From a virus: DNA of 33,302 nt. Shown here piece after piece: positions 13,295 to 32,288 of this stretch (the first letter of the stretch is position 1; every line of letters starts with the position of its first letter). The notes beneath the pieces are model-generated. The model did not search any database, was not told the origin of the DNA, and saw nothing but the letters and a program-made list of their open reading frames with translations. The stretch is taken from positions 1 to 33,302 of the IMG/VR virus record IMGVR_UViG_3300009481_000050; one strand, 5' to 3'. The position numbers and the translations under genes were made by a program.

Positions 13295-15196
13295 CTAAAG
13301 TACGACTAGTGTGCCTTGCACATCTAGAACTGTTGAACCAGCTACAGCTAATGGCCCTGCTACTAAACCATTTTCTGTACTAGCTAAAGTTAAAGTACCA
13401 GAATAACTTAACGTAGCACTATGTACTCTTATAATATCATTGGCATCACTACCTACTTCTCCGTCATTACCTAAGTAATTTCCTCCACCAGCTACTTCAC
13501 TAAAAGATATAACTCCAGAACCATTAGTTACTAAAGCCTCTCCAGAATTACCATCTGCTGTTGGCATACTTAATCCATCTAATACTACTTTACCAGAACC
13601 ATTAGGTGTTATTGCTATATTACCATTAGATACAGATACTATACTATTACCATTAACATCTAAATTTCCCCCTAATTGAGGGCTTCCGTCTTGTACTACA
13701 TCTGTTAATGAACCTGCTACTATAGATTGCCAAGCAGAGCCATCATAATACTTTAAAGCATTAGCAGTAGTATTAAATGCTAAATCTCCTTCATCTAAAG
13801 ATGATGATGGGTCAGAACTATCTACTCTATATCTTTCTGCAAAACTATTTACTCCAGCTATATTAGTAGCTACTGTTCCTATATTAGTATTAGCACCTGC
13901 TACTGTGTTAATATTTGTTGCATTTCCAGCAACAGCATTAATGTTTGTTGCATTACCAGCTACAGCAGTTATGTTACTGTTAGCTCCTGCAACTGTACTT
14001 ATATTACTATTATTACCAGCAACAGTAGCTATATTTCCTACAACACCACTTGCTCCAAGTGTTGCCATATTGGTAACATTAGCAGAAGTACCGAGAATAT
14101 TTAGGTCAGTAACTATATCGCTTGTTGCTAAAGTGTTTAAATCAGAAACTATATCAGAAGTAGCTAAAGTATTAATATCGCTTACTATGTCTGAAGTAGC
14201 TAGTGTATTTAAGTCAGTAACTATATCACTTGTAGCAAGAGTATTAAGGTCGCTTACAATATCTGTTGTTGCTAAGATTGCCATATCAGCAATAACATCA
14301 GCATTACCAAGCAGAGCCATATCAGCAATAACATCAGCATTACCTAATAAACCCATATCCGTTACAACAGCACTTGTGCCTAGTAATCCCATAGCAGTTA
14401 CATTAGCAGAAGTACCTAAATGTCCCATAGCTGTTACGTTAGCAGAAGTTGCTAATAAGTCCATGTCAGTTACGATTGCTGAAGTACCTAATATTGCTAA
14501 ATCTGCAACAGCATCAGAAGTACCTAATCGACCAATTTCTGTAGCTTTTCCAGCAACAACACCTATGTCAGTACCATCATTAGCCACAGTAGTTACATTA
14601 GAAGCAATTCCAGCAACAGTAGTTACATTACTTGCTATAGCTGTTACAGCAGTTACATCACTTGCTATTCCTGCTATTGTTGTTACATCTGTACTAGCTA
14701 CTGTAGTTTCTACATTTCCACTAGTAGCATTAAAAGATAATACTTTGCCTTTTCTCGCATCTTTTAAAGGTAATGTTAAAGTAGCACTAGCATCTTCATC
14801 TGTTTGACGAATTGATCTAGCAATCTCATCTTCTCTTTCACCCATCATAGCTACTTGTTTATCTAAATCTGTATTTAAACTAGCAATATTAAATGGCCCA
14901 GAACTAGGAAAGTCAGTAGTTCTTTTAACAGCTATATCTCTTACTATAGTTATTGTATCACCACTAGAAGCTCCACCAGAGCCAAGTGTTATATTACCCC
15001 CACCAGTTACCCCAGCATTACTTACAGAGTACTGTGTGCCACCTGAAGGGCTACTAGCATAGGTTAATAGTGTACTTCCGTTATATACTTTAACATCTGT
15101 TACATCAAATATTTCAAACGAATAAGCAAAAACAGTCTGCCCACTTGTAGCAGTGTATTGATTTCTAGGTGTTGTATCATTTACAAGTATAGCCAT
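13295..15196 (-). CDS. Main tail fibre, T7 gp17-like N-terminal domain with tandem repeats
   Basis: A 633-residue fibre. Residues ~1-140 match the T7 gp17-type tail-attachment domain: YTATSGQTVFAYSFEIFDVT, DVKVYNG, NITLGSGGASSGDTITIVRD, then TTDFPSSGPFNIASLNTDLD and a helical linker with RSIRQTDEDASATLTLPL. Residues ~168-207 and ~388-446 are 10-residue repeats (e.g. VTTVAGIASN and NINAVAGNAT), and ~224-380 are about thirteen 12-residue repeats (LATSDIVSDLNT, LGTSANVTAMGL), suggesting a trimeric shaft. The C-terminal part has the DEGDLAFNTTANALKYYDGS block and the repeats common to phage fibre stems, and ends in a short beta domain. First of the fibre genes; attaches to the tail tube. The ribosome site (AAAAGGGGG) is spaced about 15 nt from ATG, which is long. 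Confidence 0.85.
   Translation of the reverse strand: MAILVNDTTPRNQYTATSGQTVFAYSFEIFDVTDVKVYNGSTLLTYASSPSGGTQYSVSNAGVTGGGNITLGSGGASSGDTITIVRDIAVKRTTDFPSSGPFNIASLNTDLDKQVAMMGEREDEIARSIRQTDEDASATLTLPLKDARKGKVLSFNATSGNVETTVASTDVTTIAGIASDVTAVTAIASNVTTVAGIASNVTTVANDGTDIGVVAGKATEIGRLGTSDAVADLAILGTSAIVTDMDLLATSANVTAMGHLGTSANVTAMGLLGTSAVVTDMGLLGNADVIADMALLGNADVIADMAILATTDIVSDLNTLATSDIVTDLNTLATSDIVSDINTLATSDIVSDLNTLATSDIVTDLNILGTSANVTNMATLGASGVVGNIATVAGNNSNISTVAGANSNITAVAGNATNINAVAGNATNINTVAGANTNIGTVATNIAGVNSFAERYRVDSSDPSSSLDEGDLAFNTTANALKYYDGSAWQSIVAGSLTDVVQDGSPQLGGNLDVNGNSIVSVSNGNIAITPNGSGKVVLDGLSMPTADGNSGEALVTNGSGVISFSEVAGGGNYLGNDGEVGSDANDIIRVHSATLSYSGTLTLASTENGLVAGPLAVAGSTVLDVQGTLVVL
14057..14527 (-). 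repeat. 36-nt tandem repeats inside the main fibre gene
   Basis: About thirteen diverged copies of a 36-nt unit encoding 12 residues such as LATSDIVTDLNT or LGTSAVVTDMGL. Arrays of 30-nt units (10 residues, e.g. NITAVAGNAT) flank it at about 14576-14693 and 13859-14032. The periods are multiples of three and the units code for a repeated shaft, so slippage or recombination would change fibre length without breaking the frame. The copies are diverged at third positions, with the most similar ones near 14110-14260. Confidence 0.8.
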
Positions 15197-27403: not shown

Positions 27404-27856
27404 TTACTGCGTATTTCTACGCACAAAGTAATAAAAACTTGTGTTATTTACATGAATAACTTTAGGATTTATATAAAAACCTAGTAAAATCAATAGGTTA
27501 ATAGCTTTTTTATTCTCAATCCATACTAAATTATGTACTTTTTCGTAAGGAGTTGCTACATAATTTACCCATTTTACAGCCATTTTCCCTATAGTTACTG
27601 GATTATTAAAAGCTTTTTCTGTAGATAATACCCATATTGTGGCTACTTTAGAGGATTCAGGTACAACACCACCTATTAATAATGGTTCATTATCTTTATA
27701 TAATGTAAGTGTTTGATTCTTTTTCATAAGCATTGCTGTATTAATTGCTTGTAATGGAGTTTTATTAAACACTTTACATTCAACAACATCAGCATGTCGC
27801 ATATGTTTTGCTATATGTATGGCATCTTTAGGAACAGATGGTAATACAGAATACAA
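27404..27856 (-). CDS. GNAT-fold protein of the T7 gp13 (DUF2833) family, late copy
   Basis: A 150-residue GNAT-like protein in the structural operon. Marks: DAIHIAKHMRHADVVEC (first helix), LLIGGVVPESSKVATIWVLS (central strands with V-V-P...W-V-L-S), VKWVNYVATPYEKVHNLVWI, then N-K-K-A-I-N-L-L-I-L-L-G-F-Y near the end. T7 gp13 is encoded between tail and core genes and affects virion assembly; here the gene lies between scaffold and capsid. It is a diverged paralogue of the early gene 2030-2500. The conserved acetyl-CoA-binding loop R/Q-x-x-G-x-G/A is not visible, so catalysis is doubtful, and a structural use of the fold is possible. Confidence 0.7.
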   Translation of the reverse strand: MYSVLPSVPKDAIHIAKHMRHADVVECKVFNKTPLQAINTAMLMKKNQTLTLYKDNEPLLIGGVVPESSKVATIWVLSTEKAFNNPVTIGKMAVKWVNYVATPYEKVHNLVWIENKKAINLLILLGFYINPKVIHVNNTSFYYFVRRNTQ

Positions 27857-28608: not shown

Positions 28609-28852
28609 CTTTGATTCTTGTTTCTATTAAACCAACAACAAATCTCATACCTTCTCTATGTCTTAATTCAGAGTCGGTTATATTAGGCCCTGCTACACTT
28701 TCTATAGTAATACTTCTAAGATAACTAAGAACTTTTTTACCAGAAGGAGATGCAAAAGTAGATAAAAAATGTAAGTTAATTTCTTTTTCTACATCTGAAG
28801 ATCTTACTGATCCATCTACACTAGCTACTTTTTTATCCTTGTTGTCCACCAT
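28580..28852 (-). CDS. Bbp19-like phage protein (90 aa)
   Basis: A 90-residue protein resembling Bordetella phage Bbp19: FLSTFASPSGKKVLSYLRSI (the F...F-x-x-x-x-G-x-x-V-L-x-x-L motif) followed, near residue 65-80, by L-R-H-R-E-G-M-R-F-V-V-G-L-I (E-G-x-R-x-V-V-x-x-I). The family lies beside portal and scaffold genes in many podoviruses; its role is unknown. Starts 20 nt inside the end of the portal gene. Confidence 0.7.
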   Translation of the reverse strand: MVDNKDKKVASVDGSVRSSDVEKEINLHFLSTFASPSGKKVLSYLRSITIESVAGPNITDSELRHREGMRFVVGLIETRIKGGEHERSKS

Positions 28853-30401
28853 CAGGCATTTGTCCTTGAGCTTGTTGCATCTTTAGCATTTGCTCTACTA
28901 TCTGCTGTTGTTCTTCTGGTGTCCTTACTAACTTTTCAGGAATACCAAACTTCTTAGCAAGATACTGCGTTGCTTCGTTTGTGTCAACTAATCCGTTAAT
29001 TAATTGTGGGCCGAAGCGAGCTTGGACAAGTTCTAAGAATCTATTAAATGCAGATACATCTTGATTAGCTTGTGCTTGTGCTAATGGAGATGTTGATTGT
29101 ATTTTAATTTCTTGACCATTAATTGTTGGTAAAGTAATACGACCTTGTTTCTTTAATATATATACTACTCTTTGTAAAACTGGTTGTACCATTTCAGCTT
29201 GTAGTCTACCAAAAGCACTACCTATTTGCCTAGATAGATCTGCCATACGTTCAGCTACTTCTGTTGCAGACATAGGAGTTTTATTAGGATCTCCTAATGA
29301 TTCATTGTATAATGCTTTACGAATATTATTACGCATATCTTTTAATACTAGATCAGCTACATTAAAATTACCTGAAGGTGCTACTGGTTCTAATCCACGA
29401 CTACCTGCCGCTCTTGGAATAATCGTTCCGGGTAAGAGTTGTATTGTATCTACATTAACAATACCATCATCTTCTAATTGATACATACCAGATATTGCCA
29501 TCTGTGCGTTTTCTAATATTAATTCAATTACAAGATTAGTAGTCTTAACTGCTGGCATTGTGTTTAGTAATGGGCCTCTTCCCCATATTTCACCAGAACT
29601 TTTACCCCATCTAAATACTACATAAGGATTACTACCTTGTCCTTCAAATCTTTTTTGTAATAAGATATGTTTATGTTTTACAGAAAATACAGTATAGATA
29701 TAAGCTTCTACATTAGGATCACTATAATCTCTGTGGACACCTTCTGTTAAATGACAGAACATATCATTGCCTTTTGTCAACTCTCTTTTAATATCTAGTG
29801 GTAAATCTGCATCAGCATAAGCTATCATAATATTAGAAGCTCTAATATTTCTATCACGATATACACAATCTATTTGGTCATTAGGGCCAACATCTAAACT
29901 TAAATGTGGTAATGGCACAGCAGTAAACCTAATAGGATTAATTGCATCTCCTTCTTCTATTAATAAACCACCAGTACCTACTGCAAGATCTAAAAATGAC
30001 TCATGTATTTCTTGTGAGAAATTAGAGTTTTGTAATACTTCAAATATATAACTAGTTATATTATCTAGTTGTGCATTGACTTCAGCTCTTTCTTCTTCTG
30101 GTATATCTGTTCCTGCAACAAAGTCTGCCCATCTTGCATAGTTAGGAACTATACCTGCTTGTAAACGAGAAGCAAACTCTTGTACTCCAGTTACAGCAGT
30201 TTCATCAAAGATTTTATCAGTACGATTACTACCAGCAGAGGTAGCATAAAAGCTTTCTCTTGATGGCATTGCATATTCATAACACTCTTCAAAGACTGGT
30301 CGCCATTGTTCCTTAATAGTATTGGCACGTTTATATTTCTCAATCATTCTCTCAATGGGTTCTCCAGTAAGAGAGATTGGGTTAGGCATCATTATAGGCA
30401 T
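28833..30401 (-). CDS. Portal (head-tail connector) protein, gp8-like
   Basis: A 522-residue portal protein of the T7 gp8 family, the dodecamer through which DNA is packaged. Marks: WRPVFEECYEYAMPSRESFY, KIFDETAVTGVQEFASRLQA followed by G-I-V-P-N-Y-A-R-W (the R-L...P-x-x-x-W motif), PNDQIDCVYRDRNIRASNIM, then YVVFRWGKSSGEIWGRGPLL and N-T-M-P-A-V-K-T-x-N (W-x-R-x-x-G-E-x-Y/W-G-R-G-P), and MSATEVAERMADLSRQIGSA (T-A-T-E-V-x-x-R...G). The C-terminus is Gln-rich (QQQIVEQMLKMQQAQGQMPD). Located between TerL and scaffold as expected. Confidence 0.9.
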   Translation of the reverse strand: MPIMMPNPISLTGEPIERMIEKYKRANTIKEQWRPVFEECYEYAMPSRESFYATSAGSNRTDKIFDETAVTGVQEFASRLQAGIVPNYARWADFVAGTDIPEEERAEVNAQLDNITSYIFEVLQNSNFSQEIHESFLDLAVGTGGLLIEEGDAINPIRFTAVPLPHLSLDVGPNDQIDCVYRDRNIRASNIMIAYADADLPLDIKRELTKGNDMFCHLTEGVHRDYSDPNVEAYIYTVFSVKHKHILLQKRFEGQGSNPYVVFRWGKSSGEIWGRGPLLNTMPAVKTTNLVIELILENAQMAISGMYQLEDDGIVNVDTIQLLPGTIIPRAAGSRGLEPVAPSGNFNVADLVLKDMRNNIRKALYNESLGDPNKTPMSATEVAERMADLSRQIGSAFGRLQAEMVQPVLQRVVYILKKQGRITLPTINGQEIKIQSTSPLAQAQANQDVSAFNRFLELVQARFGPQLINGLVDTNEATQYLAKKFGIPEKLVRTPEEQQQIVEQMLKMQQAQGQMPDGGQQG

Positions 30402-30404
30402 ATA

Positions 30405-30635
30405 TTAATCTCCTAGTGTTGGCTTTTGCCCTGCTCCTAAGAATCCTGCACCACTTGATGAAATTAATTTTCTTTTACTACCACTCATACCATAAGCAAC
30501 TTGTTTTCTTTTTTGAACGTCTGCTGCTTGATTAGATAATTTTTGACTAGCTTGTTCATCTTCTCTATTAGAGATAGCTGGATTTGGTGGTGGTGCTGGT
30601 GGTGGTGGGGGACTACTTCTTGCTCCTAAACACAT
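30405..30635 (-). CDS. Small proline-rich virion-operon protein (76 aa)
   Basis: A 76-residue protein with a Cys-Leu-Gly start, a proline run (SSPPPPPAPPPNPAI, residues ~7-21), then a charged helical middle (REDEQASQKLSNQAADVQKR) and a Ser/Gly-rich end. Proteins with this polyproline layout occur just before the portal gene in several marine T7-like phages; the role is unknown. The ribosome site GGAGTTAAAAT precedes ATG. Its upstream neighbour is the PqqA-like gene, 10 nt away. Confidence 0.6.
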   Translation of the reverse strand: MCLGARSSPPPPPAPPPNPAISNREDEQASQKLSNQAADVQKRKQVAYGMSGSKRKLISSSGAGFLGAGQKPTLGD

Positions 30636-30645
30636 ATTTTAACTC

Positions 30646-30720
30646 CTATATTTCTGCACATGAATAACAGTTAATTTCTAAACCAACTGATACTTCTTTA
30701 ATTATTGGCGATTTCCACAT
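30646..30720 (-). CDS. pqqA: PqqA-like precursor peptide (24 aa)
   Basis: A 24-codon gene in the gap between large terminase and the proline-rich protein. A ribosome site AAAGG lies 7 nt before ATG. The peptide reads MWKSPIIKEVSVGLE followed by INCYSCAEI. This matches the PqqA signature M-(K)-W-x-x-P-x-x-x-E/D-x-x-x-G-x-E-x-x-x-Y, with Glu15 and Tyr19 at the spacing E-x3-Y that PqqE cross-links and the same positions as in Klebsiella PqqA; the ending A-E-I also occurs in methylotroph alphaproteobacterial PqqA, from memory. PqqA supplies the Glu and Tyr carbons of the cofactor PQQ after processing by PqqD, PqqE, PqqB and PqqC. None of these is in the window, so host enzymes would be needed. 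A chance match is possible for so short a peptide, though five or more signature positions coincide. Confidence 0.75.
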   Translation of the reverse strand: MWKSPIIKEVSVGLEINCYSCAEI

Positions 30721-30737
30721 AATAATGCCTTTCTAAG

Positions 30738-32288
30738 TTAGAATATACCATTTCTACGTTGAAAAATACTAGCTCGTCTACGCACAACTTTACGAGGTTC
30801 TCTTGTAAATACATCAAAATCTCTTTTAGCTTGTACTACTTTTTGTTCTTTTCCTTGTGTAAGAGCTTTACCTTCTCCTGCTCCTAGTAATAAATATTGT
30901 AAAGCATCATGTATATGTGAGTAATGATTCTTGTCTGGTTTATCAGCATACCTTTCACCAGACACATTCATACGTCTGTATTGATACCCACCCTCAAACC
31001 CTTTGATTAAATGCTTGCAACGATAATCTACAAGCATACCACTTAACCCTTCAATCATTCTACCTAGAGGAGCTCGGACACTTTCTAAACGTAATGATAC
31101 ATCATTACTTGGTGCTGGTTGAGCATAAATGCCAGCTCCTCTAAGTATTTGAAATGGTGTGCTTTCATCTGTTTGAGCTCTAAAATCCCCAGCAGGATCA
31201 CCATATATTCTAGCAAGAGGAAGATTAATAAATTTACCTTGCATCTCTTGTCTTAATACTTCTGCAAATCTAACCATACCCATATCTTGTGCTACAATCT
31301 CATGTAGTATTAACCATCTTCCTCTAATCTGCTGAGCAAATACACAAGCAGGAGTTAAACCAAAGTCTATACCTACATAGTAAGGTACTCCTTCTGCTGG
31401 TATTAATCCTTCTTTTGCAACATGCACTTCTTTAGAAAAATCTTTATAAATAGGTTTGCCATCTTCTATACTACCTAACTTATTCATTACATAAACATCA
31501 ATCCAAGATTTAGTTTTACCTCTTATAATGTTTTGATAATAATCAGATGTTAAATTTTTTACATTCTCTGCTTCTTTATTTATTTCATATCTTTCTACTT
31601 CTCCATCATTATTTCTTGTTTCAATCATTCCTGCTGGTTGTGTAAAGAATTTCCAGTTATCAGGTTTAACTAACATAAGAGTTTCTTCTCTAGTAAAATG
31701 TTCTGGTACTGGTGCATCACCAGACATAACACTCCACCAATGATCTTCGTCTGGTGCATTAGTATCAGCTATAACCCCATACCATGTAGGGCCACCATCT
31801 TTCATAGAAGGATATCTTCCTACTCTCATAGTACCTGCATCTATAATTTGTTTAGGTATTTCACGACTCTCATTAAAAAATATATAAGTTAATTCTAATG
31901 ACAATAATTTCTTTACATCATCTGGTCTATCTAATGCTAGAAAGATAACTTCTAAATCTATCTCTCCTCTTTTTATATGATGTGTATAAGGTGGCGACCA
32001 ATTCATTTTTCCCCAATCTTTTTCAGGAAACCAATCTAACCATGTTTTAATTGTTGTTGTTCTTAATTGTGGATTAGTATTTCTTACAACAGCTACTCTT
32101 GTTTTGCGTACTCCATGTGCATCTTTCTCTTGTTGTAATGCTCTTCTTAATATTTCTATACAACAAGCAACAGACTTACCAGAACCAACTGGCCCTCTTA
32201 CTCCTCTAAAGAAAGTATTGTCTGATAAAAATTCTCTTAGTATAGAACCTTCAGGTTTATAATTAAGTTCAATCAACTTTACCTGCAT
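30738..32288 (-). CDS. terL: Terminase large subunit
   Basis: A 516-residue packaging motor. ATPase: FFRGVRGPVGSGKSVACCIE holds Walker A (G-x-V-G-S-G-K-S, Lys38), R-V-A-V-V-R-N-T follows, and L-E-L-T-Y-I-F-F-N-E (residues 131-140) is Walker B with the catalytic Glu. Nuclease: Y-Y-V-G-I-D-F-G-L-T-P-A (metal Asp), LARIYGDPAGDFRAQTD (second Asp) and H-I-H-D-A-L-Q-Y (third Asp). Start after AATTAAGTT with overlap of 20 nt with the previous gene. No obvious small terminase is found next to it. The ends of the phage DNA cannot be predicted from this sequence alone. Confidence 0.93.
   Translation of the reverse strand: MQVKLIELNYKPEGSILREFLSDNTFFRGVRGPVGSGKSVACCIEILRRALQQEKDAHGVRKTRVAVVRNTNPQLRTTTIKTWLDWFPEKDWGKMNWSPPYTHHIKRGEIDLEVIFLALDRPDDVKKLLSLELTYIFFNESREIPKQIIDAGTMRVGRYPSMKDGGPTWYGVIADTNAPDEDHWWSVMSGDAPVPEHFTREETLMLVKPDNWKFFTQPAGMIETRNNDGEVERYEINKEAENVKNLTSDYYQNIIRGKTKSWIDVYVMNKLGSIEDGKPIYKDFSKEVHVAKEGLIPAEGVPYYVGIDFGLTPACVFAQQIRGRWLILHEIVAQDMGMVRFAEVLRQEMQGKFINLPLARIYGDPAGDFRAQTDESTPFQILRGAGIYAQPAPSNDVSLRLESVRAPLGRMIEGLSGMLVDYRCKHLIKGFEGGYQYRRMNVSGERYADKPDKNHYSHIHDALQYLLLGAGEGKALTQGKEQKVVQAKRDFDVFTREPRKVVRRRASIFQRRNGIF

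Follow-up and report, generated by a model that had tools for sequence, protein, structure and literature searches.

Solo pqqA in a small marine podovirus as part of a broad, overlooked pattern of precursor-only pqqA in phages

The window, i.e., the whole 33,302-base stretch analyzed here, is an IMG/VR-type virus record from an ocean virus of bacteria, a small marine podovirus. On its minus strand, the genes run from 33.1 kb downwards in the order small genes, terL, pqqA, a proline-rich gene, the head-tail adaptor gene and more structural genes. The pqqA frame comprises 24 codons with an ATG start and a TAG stop, and its product, MWKSPIIKEVSVGLEINCYSCAEI, contains W2, P5, G13, E15 and Y19; it starts 17 nt past the terL stop and occupies the gap between that stop (30738) and the start of the proline-rich gene (30635). 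The features of the locus are as follows:

30738..32288, minus strand: terL, terminase large subunit, preceding pqqA (PHROG phrog_2, E 3.6e-21)
30728..30732, minus strand: Shine-Dalgarno-like AAAGG, 7 nt 5' of the pqqA ATG (from sequence)
30646..30720, minus strand: pqqA, predicted 24-aa PQQ precursor peptide MWKSPIIKEVSVGLEINCYSCAEI (PF08042, TIGR02107), with E15 and Y19 as cross-link residues
30643..30647, minus strand: Shine-Dalgarno-like AGGAG of the proline-rich gene, overlapping the pqqA stop codon (from sequence)
30405..30635, minus strand: proline-rich 76-aa gene, following pqqA (phrog_13568, unknown function, E 3e-4)
28833..30401, minus strand: head-tail adaptor (portal/connector; phrog_332, E 6e-92)

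Closely flanked by terL and the head-tail adaptor gene, pqqA is a gene cassette with its own ribosome site amid phage genes. A preliminary description of this DNA had placed a 24-codon gene with a ribosome site in the gap between terL and the proline-rich gene, which is confirmed by the AAAGG 7 nt before the ATG, and the five residues that it had named as PqqA positions (W2, P5, G13, E15 and Y19) were all correct. The terL gene of the window shares 73% nucleotide identity with that of Pelagibacter phage Hodr across 1.4 kb. No tRNA genes were found in the window, and no informative promoter was found near pqqA.

The peptide belongs to the PqqA family according to two curated models: the NCBIfam equivalog TIGR02107 (PQQ precursor peptide PqqA) gives 27.4 bits (cut-off 20, E 2.2e-6), and Pfam PF08042 gives 24.8 bits (cut-off 21.1, E 2.3e-5). 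Both cut-offs being exceeded, the PqqA identity put forward in the preliminary description was upheld. A six-frame search of the whole record with PF08042 returned the 30646-30720 ORF as the only match, and, of the small-ORF starts, 1 of 482 in the window itself fits the PqqA motif, as against none of 18,189 in shuffled windows. Both the W-x2-P leader involved in recognition (W2 and P5) and the E-x3-Y cross-link pair after G-x (positions 15 and 19) are present. Thus, judged by its sequence, this ORF is a real gene and its predicted product a PqqA peptide. Length, W-x2-P leader, G13, E15, Y19 and the possession of an own ribosome site are all shared with bacterial PqqA (PF08042/TIGR02107); however, bacterial genes for PqqA of the same type lie immediately 5' of pqqBCDE in marine Alphaproteobacteria, whereas the window pqqA is a solo gene within a structural operon of the phage. 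The window ORF matched no PHROGs family, its peptide matched no PDB chain, and tblastn of the peptide against phage records returned nothing, 24 aa being too short and the sequence too distant from the methylophage type; type-specific queries were needed to search the phage records for pqqA.

In contigs closely related to the window, the gene is patchily distributed. At the same site, pqqA is present in the sister contig L002, which is identical, and in L003, a relative with 90% identity in terL; in the latter, the product is MWKSPIVKEVLVGLEINCYACAEI, with 3 amino-acid and 3 silent changes with respect to the window allele, which are too few for a selection test on the window allele itself. 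Conversely, three contigs close in both terL and portal (L562, L563 and L564) display only a short gap at the site and lack the gene, so that the expectation of a conserved frame in the homologous gaps held for the former two relatives and failed for the latter three. The proline-rich gene also occurs in relatives without pqqA. Of 162 loci examined, corresponding to terL and portal relatives plus stretches of Hodr and MEP301, three contained pqqA of the window motif: L002, L003 and L565, the last from the same contig as L002. Since some close relatives have no pqqA at the site, this gene constitutes an accessory cassette and not a core gene. Among cultured phages, the nearest is Pelagibacter phage Hodr (SAR11 host), which has no pqqA; MEP301 (OM43 host) comes next at a greater distance, and its pqqA encodes another peptide type and lies at a different genome place than the window pqqA.

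IMG/VR, whose contigs are computed virus calls, was then scanned with two DNA patterns built on the PqqA motif, with E and Y required. At least 353 viral loci were recovered in which pqqA stands alone, and these encode at least 196 distinct peptides; part of these loci are overlapping stretches of the same contig, and the counts are lower bounds that give no prevalence. Nearly every pattern match listed corresponded to a short ORF that has the length expected for PqqA and is preceded by a ribosome site, and among the matches listed at least 142 loci encode the alphaproteobacterial (window-like) type and at least 211 the beta/gammaproteobacterial type. Very large viral contigs with pqqA were also observed, namely L117 (356,312 bases) and L270 (265,895 bases), the PqqA of the latter being of the Methylobacterium type with a DTFN tail (MKWSAPIVQEVCVGMEVTSYDSAEIDTFN).

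Two further patterns, in which codons 15 and 19 were left free, yielded 109 and 86 distinct alleles among the matches listed. E15 and Y19 were kept in all 195 of these alleles, as had been proposed for a genuine PqqA, with both GAA/GAG and TAT/TAC in use at the invariant positions, and allele length was always exactly 23 or 24 codons (195/195); a Shine-Dalgarno-like site preceded pqqA in 243 of the 244 loci of these sets. Across all codons, pN/pS was 0.125 and 0.208 in the two sets, and at codons 15 and 19 themselves it was 0, whereas the unconstrained codons 4 and 6 showed free variation, again among the matches listed. Because other residues are fixed by the patterns, selection is fairly judged from the values at the free codons. 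The viral pqqA copies are under strong purifying selection.

With queries from L343, no match to PqqB, PqqC, PqqD or PqqE was obtained in 392 viral loci (3.18 Mb), and the same queries matched 32-43 of 57 bacterial control pqqA loci. Likewise, neither a PQQ alcohol dehydrogenase nor a PqqE above cut-off was found in 50 whole viral records (0/50 in both cases). The neighbors of sampled viral pqqA genes match terminases, DNA polymerases, exonucleases, head proteins and endolysins. Bacterial contamination as the source of the viral matches was rejected on these grounds, i.e., the absence of pqqB-E from all 392 loci and the phage-gene neighbors. The pqqA phages contribute the PQQ precursor only.

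These data bear on two explanations in which the gene would have no role. A chance likeness to PqqA might be suspected in an ORF just 24 codons long; this reading is refuted by the two curated cut-offs that the peptide surpasses, by the absence of the motif from 18,189 shuffled ORF starts, by the sister phage L003, which retains the gene in place with 3 silent changes, and by hundreds of viral homologues, leaving it a negligible probability. A host pqqA fragment gained by chance and carried as passive cargo, with no benefit to the phage, would accord with the patchy presence of pqqA among the near relatives of the window phage, yet the strong purifying selection on viral pqqA, its exact length, the presence of a dedicated ribosome site before almost every copy, and its repeated occurrence in numerous unrelated phages, never together with pqqB-E, make this very improbable.

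When 50,697 phage records were searched with a methylophage-type query, pqqA was found in Venkman, P19250A, MEP301, MEP401, MEP402 and four Melnitz phages, and also in one uncultured podovirus; NCBI lists further methylophage names (MEP431-434), and this result holds for the methylophages named here rather than for all. The peptides of the six cultured Methylophilales phages tested (Venkman, P19250A, MEP301, MEP401, MEP402 and Melnitz) were all above the family cut-off, and no PqqA match was obtained in the seven pelagiphages tested (Hodr and six HTVC010P-like phages). Like the window phage, the cultured Methylophilales phages carry a solo pqqA of 23-24 codons with a ribosome site, and their hosts are PQQ-dependent methylotrophs; unlike it, they encode the betaproteobacterial PqqA type, at other genome positions and without annotation. 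In Venkman and MEP301, pqqA lies near replication and recombination genes, in contrast to the packaging/structural context in the window. When MEP402 or Venkman is compared with the other methylophage groups, to which they are otherwise unrelated, pqqA is nearly the sole DNA match (about 60-140 bp, 79-84% identity).

The pqqA site bears no annotated feature in five isolates, and in Melnitz and the uncultured podovirus a hypothetical gene on the opposite strand overlaps pqqA. The predicted invisibility of the gene to standard gene callers holds, and the copies in cultured phages are mostly unannotated. The public records with an unannotated or hidden pqqA (L533, L534, L535, L536 [Melnitz, 2492-2566], L537, L538 [2119-2187] and L647) could be corrected. 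The papers on the MEP phages, which discuss phage genes, do not mention PQQ. A PqqA-like frame was also observed in CAKLQF020000010.1 (108204-108275) and CAKLQH020000055.1 (413-484), records named Acinetobacter phage MD-2021a.

Regarding the hosts, a genome scan for the window-type PqqA core gave 57 loci, whose labels are nearly all Alphaproteobacteria. Small-genome marine Alphaproteobacteria (1.0-1.7 Mb) encode a 24-aa PqqA, e.g., MWKSPVVREVAVGLEINCYACAEI, immediately 5' of PqqB/C/D/E-like ORFs, which were assigned by ORF size and sequence; the public labels of this group comprise Rhodospirillaceae single cells, 'Pelagibacterales' MAGs, MarineAlpha9, TMED93 and TMED109. Within the candidate host family, pqqA is present in 25 of 28 genomes, and PQQ alcohol dehydrogenases are encoded in 14 of the 17 candidate host genomes examined. 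Two PqqA peptides are identical between phages and candidate hosts, their silent sites differing. When terL was used to look for a link between the window phage and a host, the 385 genomes examined from the host class yielded distant matches only, at no more than about 50% identity. Because pqqABCDE, PQQ dehydrogenases and phage-identical PqqA peptides are found in this group, the small-genome PQQ-making marine Alphaproteobacteria appear to be the best candidate hosts of the window phage, which does not amount to proof; plausible hosts with the biosynthetic genes, as the preliminary description had anticipated, do exist. Several candidate host genomes have a second, solo pqqA, with one or two pqqA genes per host. 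Among the small-genome marine Alphaproteobacteria, solo copies away from pqqBCDE were observed in L327 (3497-3610), L328, L332, L335, L336 and L380, the copy in L327 being preceded by a LysR-type regulator gene and followed by an MFS-like transporter gene on the opposite strand. Two host names were considered and not assigned: HIMB59/AEGEAN-169, as the AEGEAN-169 paper does not include PQQ, and TMED127, whose paper describes small-genome PQQ methylotrophs and does not name in its text the genomes found here.

Viral PqqA was described before this work, contrary to the preliminary description, which knew of no such phage gene. In the Lake Baikal methylotroph virus VP_266, both PqqA and a methanol dehydrogenase were reported by Coutinho et al. 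(2020), who proposed that this PqqA boosts PQQ and methanol oxidation in the host (PMC7678222); a 2026 survey includes pqqA, pqqD and pqqE among virus-encoded genes (PMC13188868). VP_266 is a T4-like Methylophilaceae virus with a methanol dehydrogenase, whereas the window corresponds to a small podovirus with an alphaproteobacterial-type PqqA, in which no PQQ enzyme was found. In the open-licence literature, we found no papers on the spread of viral pqqA or on its presence in cultured methylophages. Since a viral PqqA was published in 2020, the window represents a widespread overlooked variant rather than the first case; the novelty resides in a precursor-only pqqA of alphaproteobacterial type in a small podovirus, as part of a broad overlooked pattern.

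The Glu and Tyr residues of PqqA are linked by PqqE together with PqqD, and each PQQ made consumes one copy of the peptide; a phage could therefore raise the flux with a 24-codon substrate alone. On the basis of the sequence comparisons, we consider it probable (roughly 0.8) that pqqA is a functional, very small auxiliary metabolic gene, from whose product host PqqB-E would make PQQ, sustaining alcohol oxidation. The phage pqqA would be translated during infection, inside the packaging-gene transcription unit, and its peptide would be accepted by the host enzymes as ordinary PqqA, with PqqD binding it and PqqE cross-linking E15 to Y19; a protease, PqqB and PqqC would then complete PQQ, and the added cofactor may keep the PQQ-dependent alcohol dehydrogenases of the host charged, providing energy during virion production. 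The supply of precursor to host PqqB-E, as suggested in the preliminary description, is thus a supported idea, and we infer the rise of PQQ during infection, as well as expression, maturation by host enzymes and benefit to the phage.

Some published observations accord with this proposal. A passage of PMC7936290 cites an increase of PQQ in Gluconobacter oxydans upon overexpression of single pqq genes, including pqqA, and passages of PMC9851590 cite the conversion of added PqqA into PQQ by cell extract and describe one methylotroph with five pqqA copies, three of them solo. Such extra copies resemble the phage gene in being precursor genes away from pqqBCDE, and differ from it in being chromosomal.

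Other functions were weighed against this precursor supply. With its leader recognition residues intact, the phage peptide could compete with host PqqA, acting as a decoy that occupies PqqD/PqqE and lowers host PQQ, e.g., by blocking a PQQ-dependent process; for this the leader would suffice and the product residues would be unneeded, yet E15 and Y19 are invariant in the 195 alleles listed, with synonymous change free. Moreover, some phage peptides are exactly those of the host, and therefore would be processed as a normal substrate. Competition with the host peptide, which the preliminary description had offered as an alternative, is accordingly disfavored, and we regard a decoy as quite unlikely. 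It is somewhat easier to conceive, though still unlikely, that the peptide is modified by host PqqE for a use other than PQQ, e.g., in regulation or signaling, or as another kind of RiPP, given that the candidate hosts already own one or two pqqA genes and that the function of phage PqqA is deduced from its sequence. Nevertheless, the phage sequences track the host PqqA type (betaproteobacterial in methylophages, alphaproteobacterial elsewhere), to the point of identical peptides, and no other modifying gene was found adjoining pqqA.

Beyond the window, we consider it likely that solo pqqA is widespread among phages that infect PQQ-making bacteria and was acquired convergently, that it provides a host-matched copy of the consumed precursor only, as the cheapest cofactor boost, and that it has been missed because it falls below the size limits of gene callers. 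If so, the presence of pqqA in a phage would be a marker for a PQQ-making host, and a gene of some 70 bases would commonly let phages of methanol oxidizers and other PQQ users control a cofactor central to energy metabolism. It would rank among the smallest auxiliary metabolic genes, with a pathway controlled through its consumed substrate instead of an enzyme, and in whole phage groups annotation would have missed what may be the most telling gene for the metabolism of the host. The proposal is directly testable, because cultured phage-host pairs (e.g., Venkman on OM43 strain H5P1) carry pqqA.

Elsewhere in the window, a tail-fiber-like gene (13295-15196) contains many repeats of units like ATSDIVSDLNTL, and a 300-aa open frame on the opposite strand (13905-14807) is probably a by-product of these repeats. 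Two small acetyltransferase-like proteins (GNAT-like by eye) are encoded at 2030-2500 and 27404-27856, one in each half of the genome.
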